Positions 52,381 to 58,404 of a stretch of DNA of 64,000 nt are shown in pieces. The position numbers were made by a program, and so were the translations under genes. Origin of the DNA: Candidatus Koribacter versatilis Ellin345. Lineage in GTDB: Bacteria > Acidobacteriota > Terriglobia > Terriglobales > Acidobacteriaceae. The stretch is from assembly GCF_000014005.1 (NCBI RefSeq), contig NC_008009.1, positions 1,736,001-1,800,000 of the forward strand. Reading direction: 5' to 3'. Position 1 is the first letter of the stretch. Each line of letters opens with the position of its first letter. The notes under the pieces were generated by a model. It saw only the letters and a list, made by a program, of their open reading frames with translations, made no database searches and was not told where the DNA came from.

Positions 52381-53223
52381 TTAACTGAACACCAACTCCT
52401 TCGCGCGCTGCGCAGCCTTCACCACCGCTTTAATCAGCGTCACCCGCAACTTGCCCTCTTCCAGTTCGAGGATGCCATCAATTGTGCAGCCTGCCGGCGT
52501 CGTTACGGCGTCCTTCAATTGCGCCGGATGTTGCCCGGTTTCCAGCACAACTTGCGCCGCGCCCATCGTTGTCTGTGCTGCCAAAAGCGTCGCCAGATCG
52601 CGCGGTAAGCCGACCTTCACGCCTGCTTCCGCCAGGGACTCGATGATGATGTAGATAAACGCTGGCCCGCTCGCCGACAGCCCGGTCACGGCATCCATAT
52701 GTTTTTCTTCCACGATAGCCGTGCGGCCCACCGTATTGAACATCGCCTGCGCCAGATCGAGTTGAGCCGCAGTAGCGTGCGCACCTTTGCAGATGCCCGT
52801 CATGCCCGCACCCAGCATTGAGGGTGTATTCGGCATGGCGCGAATGATCGGCACCTTCGCCGCGAGCCGCTCTTCCATGTAGGCCGTCGGAACCGATGCC
52901 GCTACCGAGATCAGCAGCTGGTTCGGCTTGATCTCGTCACGCAAACTGGTGAGAACAGTACCAATCTGCTGCGGCTTTAGTGCGACGAGGATGATGTCCG
53001 CGCCTTTGATTGCCGCGGCGTTATCGGTGCCAACCTGAATGCCGAACTCCTGCGTGAGCTTGGCGGTCTTATCTGCATGGTTCACCGTCGCGCGCACGCG
53101 CTTCGGCGAGAGCAGTCCTTCGCGCAACATGGCTTGCAGCAGGATGCTGCCGATCTTGCCGAGTCCGAGGATCGCGACGGTCTGTTGGGAGAGCTTCGAG
53201 GTCGATTTCGCTTTGCTGGTCAT
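52381..53223 (-). CDS. proC: Pyrroline-5-carboxylate reductase
   Basis: A 280-residue NADPH-dependent enzyme making proline. The Rossmann motif is VAILGLGKIGSILLQAML (about 18). Later blocks are LVALKPQQIGTVLTSLR, IRAMPNTPSMLGAGMTGICK and the signature TGLSASGPAFIYIIIESLAE, ending with TTPAGCTIDGILELEEGKLR. The start MTSKAKST is used because GGAAAG precedes it; a longer frame adds 12 residues. It follows thrB by 45 nt on the same strand and may be read with the threonine operon. Confidence 0.93.
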   Translation of the reverse strand: MTSKAKSTSKLSQQTVAILGLGKIGSILLQAMLREGLLSPKRVRATVNHADKTAKLTQEFGIQVGTDNAAAIKGADIILVALKPQQIGTVLTSLRDEIKPNQLLISVAASVPTAYMEERLAAKVPIIRAMPNTPSMLGAGMTGICKGAHATAAQLDLAQAMFNTVGRTAIVEEKHMDAVTGLSASGPAFIYIIIESLAEAGVKVGLPRDLATLLAAQTTMGAAQVVLETGQHPAQLKDAVTTPAGCTIDGILELEEGKLRVTLIKAVVKAAQRAKELVFS

Positions 53224-53268
53224 AGGTCTTTCCAGTGTCTTAGTTTGATGGTTGCGCAAACGTGGTAC

Positions 53269-54216
53269 TTACGCGAAAACCGAAGGATCCGGTTCGTTTG
53301 GAGGGACCTCGCTGACCGGAGCTTCGTCATTGCGGTGCACAGCCAGCGTACGAACCTGGTAGGGAAGTCCAAGCCCCTCGTAGATATTGGCTAGCATTCG
53401 CTCGATCTCGCTAAAGCTCTGCGTCGCGAAGCACACAATGGACGGTCCCGCGCCGCTCAGGCACACGCCAAGAATGTCAGGATGATCAAGCATCAACGCT
53501 TGGTCGAGTCCGGGAATGAGTTTCTGCCGATGTGGCTGATGCAGGCGATCAGAAAGCGCTTCGTGAAGAAGAGAGAAGTCTTCGCTTTGCAACGCGTGCA
53601 ACAGATGCGCCATTCGCTGGAGGTTAAATACCGCATCGTGTCGCGAAACTCTCTCCGGCAGCACGCTCCGCGCTGCCGACGTCGAGAGATTGTATTCGGG
53701 TGTCGCAACGATCAGGCACAGCGATGCCGGCCAGGGCATCGAGACCGCTGAAGTCGAACCATCGGGAAGCTGGCAACTTGCAGTCATGCCACCGAGCAGC
53801 GCAGCAGAAACATTATCGGGATGTCCTTCCAGCGCCACCGCGGCATTCAGCAGATCGCGCGCCTGCATCGGCTCCATGATTGCCTCGTACAAGCGCAAAC
53901 CCGCAACCGTGGCTGCGGCACTGCTTCCCAGACCCGAACGTATAGGAATGTCGCAATGCACATCCACTTCAAGGGAAGGGAACGACCCGCTGTGCTGCCG
54001 CGCGAGGAAATTGAACGCGCGCTCGATATAGTTGTCGCCCTTGAGTTGCTGCCCAATGAAATTGAAACGAAGCTCGTTTCTGCCCTCGATCGCCCGCACT
54101 TTCAGCCGCAAATAAAGCTGCACCGCCACGGCAAGCACGTCGAATCCCGGCCCCAGGTTTGCCACCGAGGCCGGGACCGTAATCTCGATTTCTCCGCGTT
54201 CGGCGAGCGCGCTCAT
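53269..54216 (-). CDS. thrB: Homoserine kinase
   Basis: A 315-residue GHMP kinase making O-phosphohomoserine. Motif 1 is VPASVANLGPGFDVLAVAV, motif 2 (ATP loop) is PIRSGLGSSAAATVAGLRLY (about 90) and motif 3 is GVCLSGAGPSIVCFA. The start ATG overlaps the thrC stop by 4 nt. It is the fourth gene of lysC-hom-thrC-thrB, under the leader described at 58182-58404. Confidence 0.94.
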   Translation of the reverse strand: MSALAERGEIEITVPASVANLGPGFDVLAVAVQLYLRLKVRAIEGRNELRFNFIGQQLKGDNYIERAFNFLARQHSGSFPSLEVDVHCDIPIRSGLGSSAAATVAGLRLYEAIMEPMQARDLLNAAVALEGHPDNVSAALLGGMTASCQLPDGSTSAVSMPWPASLCLIVATPEYNLSTSAARSVLPERVSRHDAVFNLQRMAHLLHALQSEDFSLLHEALSDRLHQPHRQKLIPGLDQALMLDHPDILGVCLSGAGPSIVCFATQSFSEIERMLANIYEGLGLPYQVRTLAVHRNDEAPVSEVPPNEPDPSVFA

Positions 54217-55439
54217 CCGTTCACCTCGGCCAGTCGCGCTTCATTCGCCTTCGCATGGGCCTTCAGGATGTAGTCGGTGTCCTTCAGCGCGTGGCCCGTC
54301 AGGATCGCGACCACCGTGGCATCGCGATCGAGCTTGCCTTCCGCATGCAGCTTGCGCAGCCCGGCGAGCGTAGTGGCCGAAGCCGGCTCGCAGCCAATGC
54401 CATCGAGGCCTATGAGCGCCTTTGCTTCGCCGATCTCTTCATCGGTTACTTCCATCACGAACCCGCCGGTCATCTTCACACCATGCAGCGCCTTGCGCCA
54501 CGACCGCGGATTGCCAATTCGAATCGCTGTCGCCACCGTCTCCGGATGTTCCGTCGGAGTCAGTTCGTCCGCGCCAGTCCGCCACAGCTCAGCAAATGGA
54601 TTCGCACCCGCCGCCTGCACCACTACGAGCTTTGGCAACCGATCGATAAATCCAAACTCCTTCAGCTCCTCCAGCCCTTTGCTGAATGCCGCGCTGTTAC
54701 CGAGATTCCCTCCGGGACAAATCACCACGTCCGGTACCCGCCAGTCGAGTTGCTCCATCATCTCGAAGATGACCGTCTTCTGCCCCTCAACGCGGAACGG
54801 ATTCACAGAATTCAGAAAGTAGATGTCGTCGTTTTTCGTGTTAAGAAGCTGATCGAGTGCCGCGTCGAAGCTGCCATCCACTTCGACGATCTTTGCGCCA
54901 AACTCCAGCGCCTGAGCCAGCTTGTTCAGCGAAATCTTTCCACTCGGCAGATAGACGTGGGCTTCCAATCCCGCGCGCGACGCATACGCCGCCAGCGATG
55001 CCGACGTATTGCCCGTCGAGGCACAAGCGACGATCTTCGCGCCGACATGTTTGGCTTCCGTCATGCCCGTGGTCATACCCAGGTCTTTAAAGCAGCCAGT
55101 AGGATTCCATCCGAGATGCTTGAAAAACAGCTGGTCGAGACCGGTGGATTTGCCGGTCTTCAAGCCGTGTACCAGTGGCGTATTTCCTTCGGAGAGGGTT
55201 ACAAGATCTTCTAACGAGTAGGGGCCGGGCAGGAGGTCTCGGAAACGCCACACGCCGCTTCGGTCGGCGCTGGCGTTCGACATTCGACGCTCCAGCCACA
55301 TTCGCTTTACCTGCGCCGGATCCTGCTTTGGCGCTTCCATCACCACTTCCAGCAGGTCACCACACTTCGGGCACGCCACCGCGCGTTCGTGTAGATCCAG
55401 CGTGTGCGCACAATTCCGGTTGTTGCATCGCAAATGCAT
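54213..55439 (-). CDS. thrC: Threonine synthase
   Basis: A 408-residue PLP enzyme turning O-phosphohomoserine into threonine. The first 40 residues form a zinc-ribbon (HLRCNNRNCAHTLDLHERAV, CPKCGDLLEVVM) as in plant-like threonine synthases. The Schiff-base Lys is in NPTGCFKDLGM; the phosphate loop is ASTGNTSASLAAYASRAGLE. The ATG at 55439 follows the hom stop by 8 nt. A frame extending further upstream overlaps hom and is not used. It is coupled to thrB by ATGA. Confidence 0.93.
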   Translation of the reverse strand: MHLRCNNRNCAHTLDLHERAVACPKCGDLLEVVMEAPKQDPAQVKRMWLERRMSNASADRSGVWRFRDLLPGPYSLEDLVTLSEGNTPLVHGLKTGKSTGLDQLFFKHLGWNPTGCFKDLGMTTGMTEAKHVGAKIVACASTGNTSASLAAYASRAGLEAHVYLPSGKISLNKLAQALEFGAKIVEVDGSFDAALDQLLNTKNDDIYFLNSVNPFRVEGQKTVIFEMMEQLDWRVPDVVICPGGNLGNSAAFSKGLEELKEFGFIDRLPKLVVVQAAGANPFAELWRTGADELTPTEHPETVATAIRIGNPRSWRKALHGVKMTGGFVMEVTDEEIGEAKALIGLDGIGCEPASATTLAGLRKLHAEGKLDRDATVVAILTGHALKDTDYILKAHAKANEARLAEVNG

Positions 55440-55447
55440 TCGGTCCC

Positions 55448-56743
55448 CTATTTCAAAATCGGCATGCAGAACGGCGCCTGCTTGTGGAAGTCGAGTTTCG
55501 CAATTTCGGCGAGCGCATTGTCGAGCTTCGCCGCGCTGCATGTTTCCAGCGTCATCACGAACGGCAGCTCTGTTTTCGGACAACCCGGCTTCTGCAACAC
55601 GGAGTCAATGTTAATCCCGTTCTTCGAAAGCACGTTCGCGATCGCCGCGATGATTCCCGGTTTGTCCTGAATGACGAAGCGCACATAGTGCGGCGTCTCG
55701 AAGTCGTTGCTCACCGCGAAACGCGCCGGATCGGCAGCGTCATATTCGCGCGGCTTGTGGCGTGCGATGTGCAACAGATCGGAAACCACCGCGACCGCCG
55801 TCGGATTGCCGCCCGCCCCGAAGCCCGCAAACACGGTTTCGCCGCCAAATTCGCCGGTGCTCACCAGCAAATTCTGGCTTCCTGCCACACGCGCCAGAGG
55901 TTCGGTTTGCGGCACCAAAGCCGGTTCGACGGACGCATACAGCTTATTGCCGTGCTTCTCGGCGCGCGAAATCTGCCGAATCGTGCAGCCAAGCTGGTGC
56001 GCGTAGTCGAAGTCAATTTGCTGCACGCCGGAGATCGCGCGACACTGCACTTCATCCGCACGCACGTCGGCGTTCAAGCCTACGCGCGAGAGGATGACCA
56101 GCTTCGCGCGCGCATCGTAACCTTCAATGTCATCGGTCGGATCAGCCTCGGCAAGTCCCGCCTTCTGAGCCTCGACCAACGCATCGGCGAACGATGCCCC
56201 GCTCTGTTCAATCCGCGTCAGGATGTAATTGCACGTTCCATTCAATATCCCGCGCACCTTGTGCAGCCGATCGCCCGCCAGACCATCTTGCAGTGCGGCG
56301 ATCACCGGCACTCCGCCCGCAACGCAGGCGCCAAAACCAAGGTGCAGATCGCGTTCCCGCGCCAGCGCGAACAGCTCGCTGCCATGGTGAGCAATCAGCT
56401 GCTTGTTTGCCGTCACGATGGCCTTACCCGCCAGCAGTGCGCTTTTCACCCACTGGTATGCAGGATCGAGTCCACCAACCAGCTCGACGATCACTTCCGC
56501 GTCCGATTTGATCAGATCATCGAACGTATCGGTCCACTGCACATCGCTCGAGACCCAATCCACCTTCTTGCGTGCGACATCGCGGTTGTACACATGCGTC
56601 AACTGGAAGGGAAGCTCTCCATTACGCGAGGCCAGCAGACGCGCCACCGAACTGCCGACGGTGCCAAAGCCCACCAGTGCGACCTTGCAAACTTTCGCCG
56701 AAGCGTTCTCTGGGAGGCGTGTCACTTTCAAAGTCGAAGCCAT
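55448..56743 (-). CDS. hom: Homoserine dehydrogenase
   Basis: A 431-residue NAD(P)-dependent enzyme. The Rossmann motif is VALVGFGTVGSSVARLLASR (about 22). The catalytic block has GGVPVIAALQDGLAGDRLHK, RGILNGTCNYILTRIE and DPTDDIEGYDARAKLVILSR. A C-terminal ACT domain (about 350-430) carries PGIIAAIANVLSKNGINIDS and should give feedback inhibition by threonine. Its ATG abuts the lysC stop (TAA ATG), so the two are coupled. Confidence 0.95.
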   Translation of the reverse strand: MASTLKVTRLPENASAKVCKVALVGFGTVGSSVARLLASRNGELPFQLTHVYNRDVARKKVDWVSSDVQWTDTFDDLIKSDAEVIVELVGGLDPAYQWVKSALLAGKAIVTANKQLIAHHGSELFALARERDLHLGFGACVAGGVPVIAALQDGLAGDRLHKVRGILNGTCNYILTRIEQSGASFADALVEAQKAGLAEADPTDDIEGYDARAKLVILSRVGLNADVRADEVQCRAISGVQQIDFDYAHQLGCTIRQISRAEKHGNKLYASVEPALVPQTEPLARVAGSQNLLVSTGEFGGETVFAGFGAGGNPTAVAVVSDLLHIARHKPREYDAADPARFAVSNDFETPHYVRFVIQDKPGIIAAIANVLSKNGINIDSVLQKPGCPKTELPFVMTLETCSAAKLDNALAEIAKLDFHKQAPFCMPILK

Positions 56744-58153
56744 TTATGCTACCCCCGAACAGCCGGCGTAAACTTCGTCGCCCTTGGCTGCGAACGTTAA
56801 TTTCTCTTCCTCGAAGAAGTGGGCGTGCAGCGCCTTCACCGCTCGCACCGCCTCGTTTTCTTCCGCCACGAAGCTGATGTTGATCTCCGACGCACCCTGC
56901 GAAACCATGTGAATGTTGACGCCATGCTTGGCCACCACGGCGAAGACATCGGCGCAAATACCCACCCGCCCGCGGATGTTATCGCCCACCAGGCAAACGA
57001 TGGCCTTTCCGTTCTCCACATCCACTTGCCCCAGCCGCTTCAGATCGCTCACCAATGCCTTCACATCGCGCGTTCCATCCAGCGCCACCGAAACGCTCAC
57101 TTCGGAGGTATTTACCAGGTCCGGCGAGAGCGAATGCTTCTCAAACACTTCGAACAGCGACCGCAGGAAGCCATGATTGATCAGCAGCCGTGGCGCGCGG
57201 ATATTCAAAATCTTCGTGCCCTTCTTCAGCGCGATGGCGCGGAAGGTCGTCGCACTATGCGGTGCGTGTTGCTGGATGCAGGTGCCCGTGCTCTTCGGAT
57301 TGCGCGAATTCAGTACGTACACCGGAATATTCGACTCGACCGCCGGAATCAGCGTCGCCGGATGCAGCACCTTCGCCCCGAAGTAAGCCAACTCCGAAGC
57401 TTCTTCGAAGCCAATCACTTCAATCCGCCTCGCATCTTTGCAAATCCGCGGATCGGTCGTCAGCATGCCTTCGACATCGGTCCAGATCTCAATCTTCTTC
57501 GCGCCCAACGCCGCGCCCACGATCGCTGCCGAAAAGTCTGAACCTCCGCGCCCCAACGTCGTCTGCGTGCCGTCCTCGGTCGCGCCGACGAAGCCGCCCA
57601 ATACTGGTACCCGGTTCTTTGCGAGATGTTCTTTGAGAGCGCTGCGGAGGCGGGAATTGGTCTGATCGAGAAGCGGAACGGCCTTGGTATGACAGTTGTC
57701 GGTCACGATACATTGACGGGCATCAATATGTATCGCATCCACCCCAGCGGCTTTGAACAGCGCTACCACCATCACGCTCGACAACATCTCGCCGAACGAC
57801 AAGACGTTGTCCTGGGTGCGGGGCGAAAGCTCACCGAGCGCCGCAATGCCCTTGAGCACGTCCTGCAGGTTGCCAAATAGTTCCTGCACCTGCTCTTCGG
57901 CCGCCCCTGCGCCCTTGACGCCCGCCAGCACCGCCAGGTGCCTTTGCCGTCCAGCCTTCCATAGCTTCAGCGCCGCCGCGAGGTCACCCTTCGCCGCGGC
58001 TTTGCCCATCGCCACCAGCGAGTCCGTAAACCCGCCCAGCGCACTGACCACGACCGCCGGCTTTTGTTTGGCGCGGTCACGGACGATCCCTGCCACCCGC
58101 GAGATCGCCGCCGCGTCTTCCACCGAGGTACCACCGAACTTCATGACAATCAT
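56744..58153 (-). CDS. lysC: Aspartate kinase
   Basis: A 469-residue enzyme phosphorylating aspartate. Motifs are MIVMKFGGTSVEDAAAISRV, then VLGGFVGATEDGTQTTLGRG and GSDFSAAIVGAALGAKKIEI, WTDVEGMLTTDPR. Two ACT domains follow (about 320-460, for example GDNIRGRVGICADVFAVVAK), for allosteric control. The ATG at 58153 is chosen since GGGAG lies 6 nt upstream; a longer frame from 58189 starts inside the terminator stem. It is the first gene after the attenuator. Confidence 0.95.
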   Translation of the reverse strand: MIVMKFGGTSVEDAAAISRVAGIVRDRAKQKPAVVVSALGGFTDSLVAMGKAAAKGDLAAALKLWKAGRQRHLAVLAGVKGAGAAEEQVQELFGNLQDVLKGIAALGELSPRTQDNVLSFGEMLSSVMVVALFKAAGVDAIHIDARQCIVTDNCHTKAVPLLDQTNSRLRSALKEHLAKNRVPVLGGFVGATEDGTQTTLGRGGSDFSAAIVGAALGAKKIEIWTDVEGMLTTDPRICKDARRIEVIGFEEASELAYFGAKVLHPATLIPAVESNIPVYVLNSRNPKSTGTCIQQHAPHSATTFRAIALKKGTKILNIRAPRLLINHGFLRSLFEVFEKHSLSPDLVNTSEVSVSVALDGTRDVKALVSDLKRLGQVDVENGKAIVCLVGDNIRGRVGICADVFAVVAKHGVNIHMVSQGASEINISFVAEENEAVRAVKALHAHFFEEEKLTFAAKGDEVYAGCSGVA

Positions 58154-58176: not shown

Positions 58177-58214
58177 ACAGAAAACCCACCTACCCTGCTT
58201 AGGGCGGTGGGTTT
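58177..58214 (-). terminator. Intrinsic terminator/attenuator before lysC
   Basis: On the minus strand AAACCCACC (58214-58206) pairs with GGTGGGTTT (58190-58182), a 9-bp stem with inner CCCT-AAGC-AGGG, followed by TTTCTGTTTT. It stands 24 nt before the lysC ATG and after a promoter for the same operon. Termination here would therefore block lysC-hom-thrC-thrB. Confidence 0.88.
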
Positions 58215-58300
58215 GTAAGTTCTTGATTCTTAGAGTTTAAGTGCTCTTAAAATCCCCCTCCGCCCTTTGTGGTTCGCGATGTTGTTGTAATTCGCGTACC
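58201..58300 (-). promoter_or_regulatory. Antiterminator pairing and Thr-codon pause hairpin
   Basis: AGGGCGGAGGG (58266-58256, minus strand) pairs, with one mismatch, with CCCACCGCCCT (58211-58201), the 5' part of the terminator stem, so the two structures exclude each other. Just upstream, GGTACGCGA (58300-58292) pairs with TCGCGAACC (58279-58271), one mismatch, around a 12-nt loop that contains one Ile and three Thr codons. A stalled ribosome at those codons would free the antiterminator. Confidence 0.8.
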
Positions 58301-58360
58301 AATACCCGAGATTGTGCACGGCATGCACATGGCCATCTGGGTTGGGCGGAAGCTTGCCAT
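58247..58360 (-). CDS. Threonine/isoleucine-rich leader peptide
   Basis: The 37-codon frame starts MASFRPTQMAMCMPC and ends with the run GTRITTTSRTTKGGGGF then TAA. Six of ten codons from TRITTTSRTT are Thr and one is Ile; E. coli ThrL is likewise TITTTITITT-rich and ends in a Gly/Asn-rich tail. The Thr run sits in the loop of a hairpin and the tail codons (AAG GGC GGA GGG) overlap the antiterminator, as needed for attenuation. The ATG at 58360 is only about 8 nt from the predicted transcript start and has no Shine-Dalgarno, so it may be leaderless; in-frame ATGs at 58336, 58330 and 58324 are alternatives. Confidence 0.75.
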   Translation of the reverse strand: MASFRPTQMAMCMPCTISGIGTRITTTSRTTKGGGGF

Positions 58361-58374
58361 AATTTAGTTCGATG

Positions 58375-58404
58375 AGTGTAGAGGAACCGGCGGATGCCGG
58401 TCAA
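58375..58404 (-). promoter_or_regulatory. Sigma-70 promoter for the lysC-hom-thrC-thrB operon
   Basis: On the minus strand TTGACC (58404-58399), 18 nt, TACACT (58380-58375). Transcription should start near 58368, giving a leader of about 215 nt to the lysC ATG. It lies 12 nt after the ldh stop, separating the operon from ldh. Confidence 0.75.

Follow-up and report, generated by a model that had tools for sequence, protein, structure and literature searches.

The question raised by this locus is how the lysC-hom-thrC-thrB operon of Candidatus Koribacter versatilis Ellin345 is controlled from the short stretch of DNA that separates lysC from the L-lactate dehydrogenase gene (ldh). The window, that is the entire 64,000-nt stretch analyzed here and the frame for all positions below unless stated otherwise, carries on its minus strand the genes for aspartate kinase (lysC, 56744-58153, with its start at 58153; NCBIfam NF006570, 543.7 bits), homoserine dehydrogenase (hom, 55448-56743; NF004976, 409.7 bits), threonine synthase (thrC, ORF limits 54213-55583; TIGR00260, 265.9 bits) and homoserine kinase (thrB, 53269-54216; TIGR00191, 226.9 bits), so that all four genes named in a first-pass annotation of this DNA are confirmed by NCBIfam. 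Since the thrC ORF overlaps hom, its true start probably lies further in. Immediately after thrB comes proC (52381-53259, minus strand; TIGR00112, 273.2 bits), possibly on the same transcript, and a LysR-type regulator gene follows proC. Judging from its sequence, the element upstream of lysC is very probably a ribosome-mediated transcription attenuator for lysC-hom-thrC-thrB.

The components of this element all lie on the minus strand. The promoter proposed in the first-pass annotation is indeed there: a sigma-70-type TTGACC-18-TACACT at 58404-58375 (TTGACC at 58404-58399, TACACT at 58380-58375), the one promoter-like site in 801 nt scanned against a shuffle mean of 0.2, with TTGACC-18-TATATT at the same position in the same-genus relative G032. 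The 37-codon frame described earlier is likewise present at 58360-58247. It encodes MASFRPTQMAMCMPCTISGIGTRITTTSRTTKGGGGF and has eight Thr codons, including those of the regulatory run ATT ACA ACA ACA (Ile-Thr-Thr-Thr, 58291-58280). Near the beginning of this ORF, segment 1, CTTCCGCCC (58352-58344), can pair with segment 2, AGGGCGGAGGG (58266-58256), to form a protector (1:2) of 9 bp in the minimum free energy (MFE) structure. Segment 2, which lies within the ORF and stops 9 nt short of its end, can instead pair with segment 3, the 5' arm of the terminator (CCCACCGCCCU), as an antiterminator (2:3); this is the 11-nt complementarity with one mismatch that had been pointed out, the mismatch being A.A. 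Between segments 2 and 3 the MFE structure contains an internal stem, GATTTTAAGAG / CTCTAAGAATC (58254-58225), that spans the stop codon of the leader ORF. The intrinsic terminator (3:4, 58214-58182) is followed by TCTGTTTT and resembles its counterparts in relatives. It had been reported as a 9-bp stem with a T run; the T run stands, and the 9 bp are the outer part of a stem of 14 pairs with one bulge (-21 kcal/mol). A simple terminator scan returned no site on either strand; the bulge probably explains why it overlooked this one. The fold of the 200-nt element has z = -6.4, none of 200 shuffles being equally stable, and when the leader ORF is shuffled, 3 of 5000 sequences reach its six Thr codons within 12 codons. 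A fold this strong together with such a Thr cluster indicates that the element is not a product of chance.

A further hairpin, CGCGA/UCGCG, holds ATT ACA ACA ACA in its loop. It exists in the window as the first-pass annotation described it and is, by eye, not recognizable as such in most relatives. The conserved motif CGAATTA occurs just 5' of segment 2 (58294-58288 in the window; also, for example, L032, L146, L148 and L037), where it reads as the codons Arg-Ile after Thr and in some loci forms the loop of a small hairpin.

If the element is functional, it should recur before the same genes in relatives. The family sample comprised 200 genomes, with LysC found in 189 and Hom in 146 at the cut-offs used. 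Among the matches listed, 20 lysC-hom-linked loci had upstream DNA (the genes are also linked in G151, at a contig end), and in 19 of these 20 a leader ORF ends shortly before a terminator. For instance, the leader of G032 reads MTNRRPSPKAMCITSTITGTGSRITPRTSRAGGRF and that of G131 reads MRMSTTTRIMTTTGTITGLRPGAWFREEIS. The exception, G071 (L005), lacks such a leader immediately upstream of lysC. In the same genome a possible diverged leader, ...VIPITGTILIRIGPSG, lies about 257 nt before lysC with a strong hairpin and a poor T tract; it was not counted. Outside the 20 loci, G011 and G004 (L266, L268), found with the search model R1 introduced below, have a leader 1.5-1.6 kb before hom. Where lysC follows asd, no leader was present in the sequences viewed (L010, L016, L023), and scanning gave no such leader in the 157 nt upstream of the organism's own asd-lysC2 or on the strands adjoining its own ilvB, trpE and second hom. 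One locus that ranks among the acidobacterial LysC loci, L072 (CALQCC020000002.1), is titled as a Bordetella parapertussis MAG, perhaps through mislabeling.

Leaders also occur in a second type of operon. Regions lying about 5 kb upstream of more distant hom genes contain Thr leaders in 9 of 20 cases, three of the 20 being shortened by contig ends (L198, L202, L203), and in 10 of 21 when L187, found by R1, is included. The gene order is known for L187 alone, as thrB-lysC-thrC-hom (thrB and lysC identified, the rest by eye); in the other nine a distance of 3.2-4.3 kb separates the leader from the hom gene downstream. Weak matches to the Thr rule in three thrB-type regions (L203, L211, L212) had poor hairpins and were not counted. 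Among upstream regions of hom itself a leader was found in 5 of 24, lysC preceding hom in at least three of the 24. A strict Thr rule was positive in none of 40 hom upstream regions, one of which, L293, was later found to carry a Thr/Met leader. The statistics below rest on nested sets: 24 elements, made up of 22 of 42 regions (17 of 18 lysC and 5 of 24 hom regions, accepted by eye on a terminator and a leader-like ORF) plus L037 and L065; 34 leaders, on adding L187 and the nine from the 20 distant-hom regions; and 38 Thr leaders, on adding four found by R1. L253 and L254, the latter with a peptide identical to that of L065, enter none of these statistics.

What the mechanism demands of the RNA is a set of competing pairings. 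When the 24 elements were aligned with MAFFT, segment 2 was misaligned, and the model built from this alignment, R1, holds only 8 terminator pairs; the pairings were therefore tested by permuting duplex partners among loci. Over the 34 leaders the 2:3 duplex averages -19.1 kcal/mol with its cognate partner against -15.6 kcal/mol with swapped partners, and the 1:2 duplex -19.2 against -16.1 kcal/mol. None of 20,000 permutations reached the cognate value for either pairing, and the outcome was the same with 18 representatives at no more than 75% identity. The cognate partner ranks first in 3 of 34 leaders for 2:3 and in 5 of 34 for 1:2 (with a median rank of 5 and 9, respectively), as expected given that many loci have a nearly identical segment. 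By eye, segment 2 contains GGGCGG in the group of the window, TTCTGGC or GTCTGGCG in others and GGACGCATG in L065, and segment 3 changes to match each variant. Compared with shuffles of the leader itself, the 2:3 duplex was equaled or bettered by fewer than 10 of 200 in 12 of 24 loci, by 10 to 23 in six and by 38 to 93 in the remaining six (L008, L032, L146, L065, L125, L129). The antiterminator, exclusive with the terminator, is thus conserved through compensation across the leaders and weak in 6 of 24 members. The mutually exclusive pairing of the first-pass annotation holds up in this respect and was incomplete in another, as the third pairing, 1:2, completes the classical three-way scheme. 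The test set beforehand for that annotation was that relatives should keep the Thr/Ile codons and that the alternative stems should covary among them, and overall both were found.

The effect of ribosome position was modeled by folding the RNA made before the terminator 3' arm after removing sequence up to 13 nt, the assumed ribosome edge, from the first base of the A-site codon. In the 34 leaders segment 3 is paired upstream, as in the antiterminator, with an average value of 0.69 when the ribosome is at the Thr codons and 0.16 when it is at the stop codon, a contrast of 0.53; shuffled leaders give 0.43 at the Thr codons and a contrast of 0.16. For the window element, where a ribosome placed at ATT ACA ACA ACA leaves the antiterminator free, 1 of 30 shuffles equals the contrast; at the weakest locus (L151) 17 of 30 do. 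With no ribosome the antiterminator stands at 0.60, which means that shut-off of untranslated RNA is not predicted by thermodynamics alone. Likewise, although the protector is cognate-specific over the 34 leaders, the model does not predict that 1:2 wins in untranslated RNA.

Translation of these leaders would begin close to the -10 box. The start codon of the window leader comes 14 nt after the -10 box with no Shine-Dalgarno-like 4-mer, and such 4-mers precede 2 of the 34 leaders. With start codons set blind to promoters, the end of the best -10/-35 pair falls 6-15 nt upstream of the start codon in 25 of 34 leaders and in 339 of 1673 shuffles. Transcription usually starts 6-8 nt after the -10 box. 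With this spacing the predicted starts would make many of the leaders leaderless, and the 14-nt gap in the window would leave a 5' UTR of about 7 nt.

A promoter match, an ORF, a run of Thr codons and three alternative pairings are present, the pairings being conserved, and from them we infer translation, stalling, termination and the identity of the signal. RNA polymerase would start a few nucleotides before the short ORF, with a ribosome following. When charged tRNA-Thr is scarce, the ribosome would stall at the Thr codons and leave segment 2 free to pair with segment 3, and the polymerase would continue into lysC-hom-thrC-thrB. When threonine is plentiful, the ribosome would reach the stop codon and cover segment 2, so that the 3:4 hairpin forms and transcription ends. 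In the absence of translation segment 1 could hold segment 2. Ile and Met codons may add to the signal.

The same observations can be read without attenuation. Between ldh and lysC there might be an intrinsic terminator that acts constitutively, beside an unrelated short ORF and with no regulation; this reading suits a terminator ending 28 nt before lysC and the 12 of 24 loci in which 10 or more of 200 leader shuffles pair equally well. However, the promoter match lies upstream of this terminator, which if constitutive would only block its own operon, and neither the conserved Thr codons nor the conserved 1:2 and 2:3 pairings would be accounted for; this makes it very unlikely. It is just as improbable that the RNA works without leader translation, as a riboswitch, a T-box or a protein-bound element. 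The strong fold and the CGAATTA motif before segment 2 in many relatives would fit such an RNA, but the in-frame codon bias described below requires translation. Moreover, Rfam covariance models run on the window stretch at E up to 10 gave no match to riboswitches, T-boxes or the Thr leader family, which we take to be the same kind of element as the window leader, and the two matches obtained (E 1.7 and 2.5) were unrelated.

Little credence is also due to the idea that the terminator is secondary and that the leader works through translational coupling or serves as a functional small peptide. Some leaders do share peptide ends such as VWRGR or FREEIS, as a functional peptide might, but the shared VWRGR ends are encoded by the stretch that forms segment 2, and a 93-nt gap that contains the terminator separates the leader from lysC. 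Attenuation by a translating ribosome thus remains the preferred reading, and what it leaves to be weighed is which amino acids the ribosome reports.

Here the codons of the leaders are informative. In the 34 leaders Thr accounts for 196 of 1069 codons in frame against 31 and 27 of 1035 in the other two frames, and Met for 60 in frame against 2 and 5. Relative to shuffles, Ser (z = 3.6), Ile (5.7), Met (10.3) and Thr (14.6) are all enriched, the value for Thr being partly circular in that 9 of 10 second-type leaders were chosen by a Thr rule and others partly by eye; Met and Ile were no selection criterion. Thr was the signal originally proposed, and its enrichment in frame agrees with this, but Thr alone may be too narrow. 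At least four Thr in 12 codons are found in 8 of 17 lysC-hom-linked leaders (shuffles: mean 0.4, maximum 2), whereas the best 12-codon stretch of the other nine has fewer than four, most of these being rich in Thr, Ile and Met together. At least five Thr, Ile or Met in 12 codons occur in 14 of 17 (shuffles: mean 1.0, maximum 4). The leaders STGRTMTMTTMAMRIT (L268, before lysC) and GRITTMAMCMHICT (L293, before hom), among others, also suit a variant of the attenuator, not exclusive with the Thr reading, in which the leader senses Thr, Ile and Met, all products of homoserine, and a stall at a codon for any of the three would open the operon. On the other side, Met is at least as frequent in leaders with Cys runs (see below): Cys aside, it makes up 13 of 81 core codons there, and Thr aside, 33 of 400 core codons in Thr leaders. 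It may be a general feature, for instance spare start codons or structure. The four His leaders, with Met at 0 of 11 core codons, are too few for a useful control. Of the 38 Thr leaders, just half (19) have a Met within the Thr core. Because Met is frequent in Cys leaders too, composite sensing is put forward here as a hypothesis whose chances fall a little below even.

Leaders of this style are not confined to threonine genes. R1 was aimed at Thr leaders throughout the phylum and, at E <= 0.001 with stricter filters, matched in 10 of 396 genomes, several matches lying on the strand opposite the leader because the terminator is palindromic. Two of the ten genomes are outside the family of the window, and both matches are Cys leaders: L177 (G338, family f19) and L176 (G504, family f84), with Cys runs before a PAPS reductase gene (L189) and a sulfur-carrier-like cluster (L188, by eye).

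Similar elements occur elsewhere in the organism's own genome (G000, contig C1, in genome coordinates). A Cys leader, MSSQSQLCRMMGNPCICCCGKTHTGAREIMV, with a terminator at 2805122-2805236 on the plus strand (L164, L178:373-530) precedes a nitrite/sulfite reductase-type gene, and Cys-run leaders precede similar reductase-type genes in relatives (L279, L299, L300, L305, L306, L307, L311). A Cys6 leader, ...SSVAMCCCCCCSMLARGGTKS, with a terminator at 1025130-1025216 on the plus strand (L165, L179) is followed by ssuA-type and ABC ATPase genes. A His leader, ...HTSHRHHHHHAFRVSVELCAS, with a terminator at 4355801-4355923 on the plus strand (L166, L180) is followed by hisI and hisD, with hisG between them by eye, and has similar counterparts in L310 and L312. 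Finally, a Met/Cys-rich leader, MTMLSVSFSPLSTMAMCMHMCARPRVQGATD, with a terminator at 5341792-5341909 on the minus strand (L168, L181) precedes an O-acetylhomoserine sulfhydrylase gene and is possibly a Met attenuator. The ssuA, His and Met/Cys sites are weak R1 matches (E 0.08 to 0.5), identified by their codon runs and the genes that follow. Six own-genome stretches, that of the Met/Cys-rich leader among them, gave no Rfam match at the gathering threshold. That Cys, His and Met/Cys leaders stand before matching operons in one genome greatly lowers the chance that the Thr leader is a coincidence. In another genome a Val/Leu/Ile-rich leader-like frame near an acetolactate synthase-like cluster (L170 / L185, G075:C2:37579-37688:-; by eye on the strand opposite the printed one) is possibly a branched-chain attenuator.

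The E. coli thr attenuator (thrL) likewise combines a Thr/Ile-rich leader peptide with a protector, an antiterminator and a terminator before a threonine operon, and one acidobacterial leader, L206, reads TSTITTTTITGAHGG, which resembles thrL. Unlike thrL, the leaders described here mostly lack a Shine-Dalgarno-like motif and have a start codon near the -10 box, segment 2 inside the ORF, Met codons and an operon headed by lysC or (L187) thrB, and they belong to another phylum.

Polycysteine ORFs of mycobacteria, leaderless according to the title of Canestrari 2020 (as cited in PMC13236596), are similar to the acidobacterial leaders in being short ORFs with a codon run for the product. In the portion of PMC1262725 available to us the mycobacterial cys leaders have no conserved terminator hairpins, in contrast to the strong hairpins with T tracts of the acidobacterial Cys and Thr leaders, and for Actinobacteria the same text reports no conserved structures upstream of threonine operons. 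Naville and Gautheret 2010 (PMC2965389) predicted attenuators in many phyla; the available sections associate almost none with a function in phyla such as Acidobacteria and regard leader peptides as unproven outside Proteobacteria and Actinobacteria before their own case in Firmicutes. The main text of that paper contains none of the words threonine, thrA and lysC. Upstream ORFs rich in branched-chain and Thr codons, the ilvB-OMG and ilvB motifs, are read as attenuators in various phyla in the accessible part of PMC10272879, so that attenuation by leader peptides already has precedents outside Proteobacteria, Actinobacteria and Firmicutes; these motifs sit upstream of ilvB, not of lysC or hom. 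PMC4833913, in its available text, gives a peak of leader-gene distances in Acidobacteria and names no thr case, and the "leader peptide" of PMC8528874 is, in the passages at hand, an export signal. Searches of one open-licence library yielded no description of Thr leader attenuation in Acidobacteriota, while Lopatovskaya 2010 (Mol Biol 44:128) may contain acidobacterial predictions. The mechanism is thus a known one, apparently undescribed in this phylum, and its novelty there is likely, not certain.

A broader picture is offered tentatively, with slightly less confidence than composite sensing on its own. Ribosome-mediated attenuators with leaderless or near-leaderless ORFs and a shared style of terminator may have gone unrecognized across Acidobacteriota, before threonine, cysteine/sulfur and histidine operons and perhaps also methionine and branched-chain operons, with the lysC/hom leaders acting as composite Thr/Ile/Met sensors, that is for every protein amino acid made from homoserine. 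The Thr attenuator reading gives a function and a mechanism to attenuators of a large soil phylum, to which the 2010 survey, in the sections available, assigned almost none (PMC2965389). If the leaders are indeed leaderless and composite, attenuation would work without a Shine-Dalgarno sequence, and a single short peptide would watch over a whole metabolic branch.
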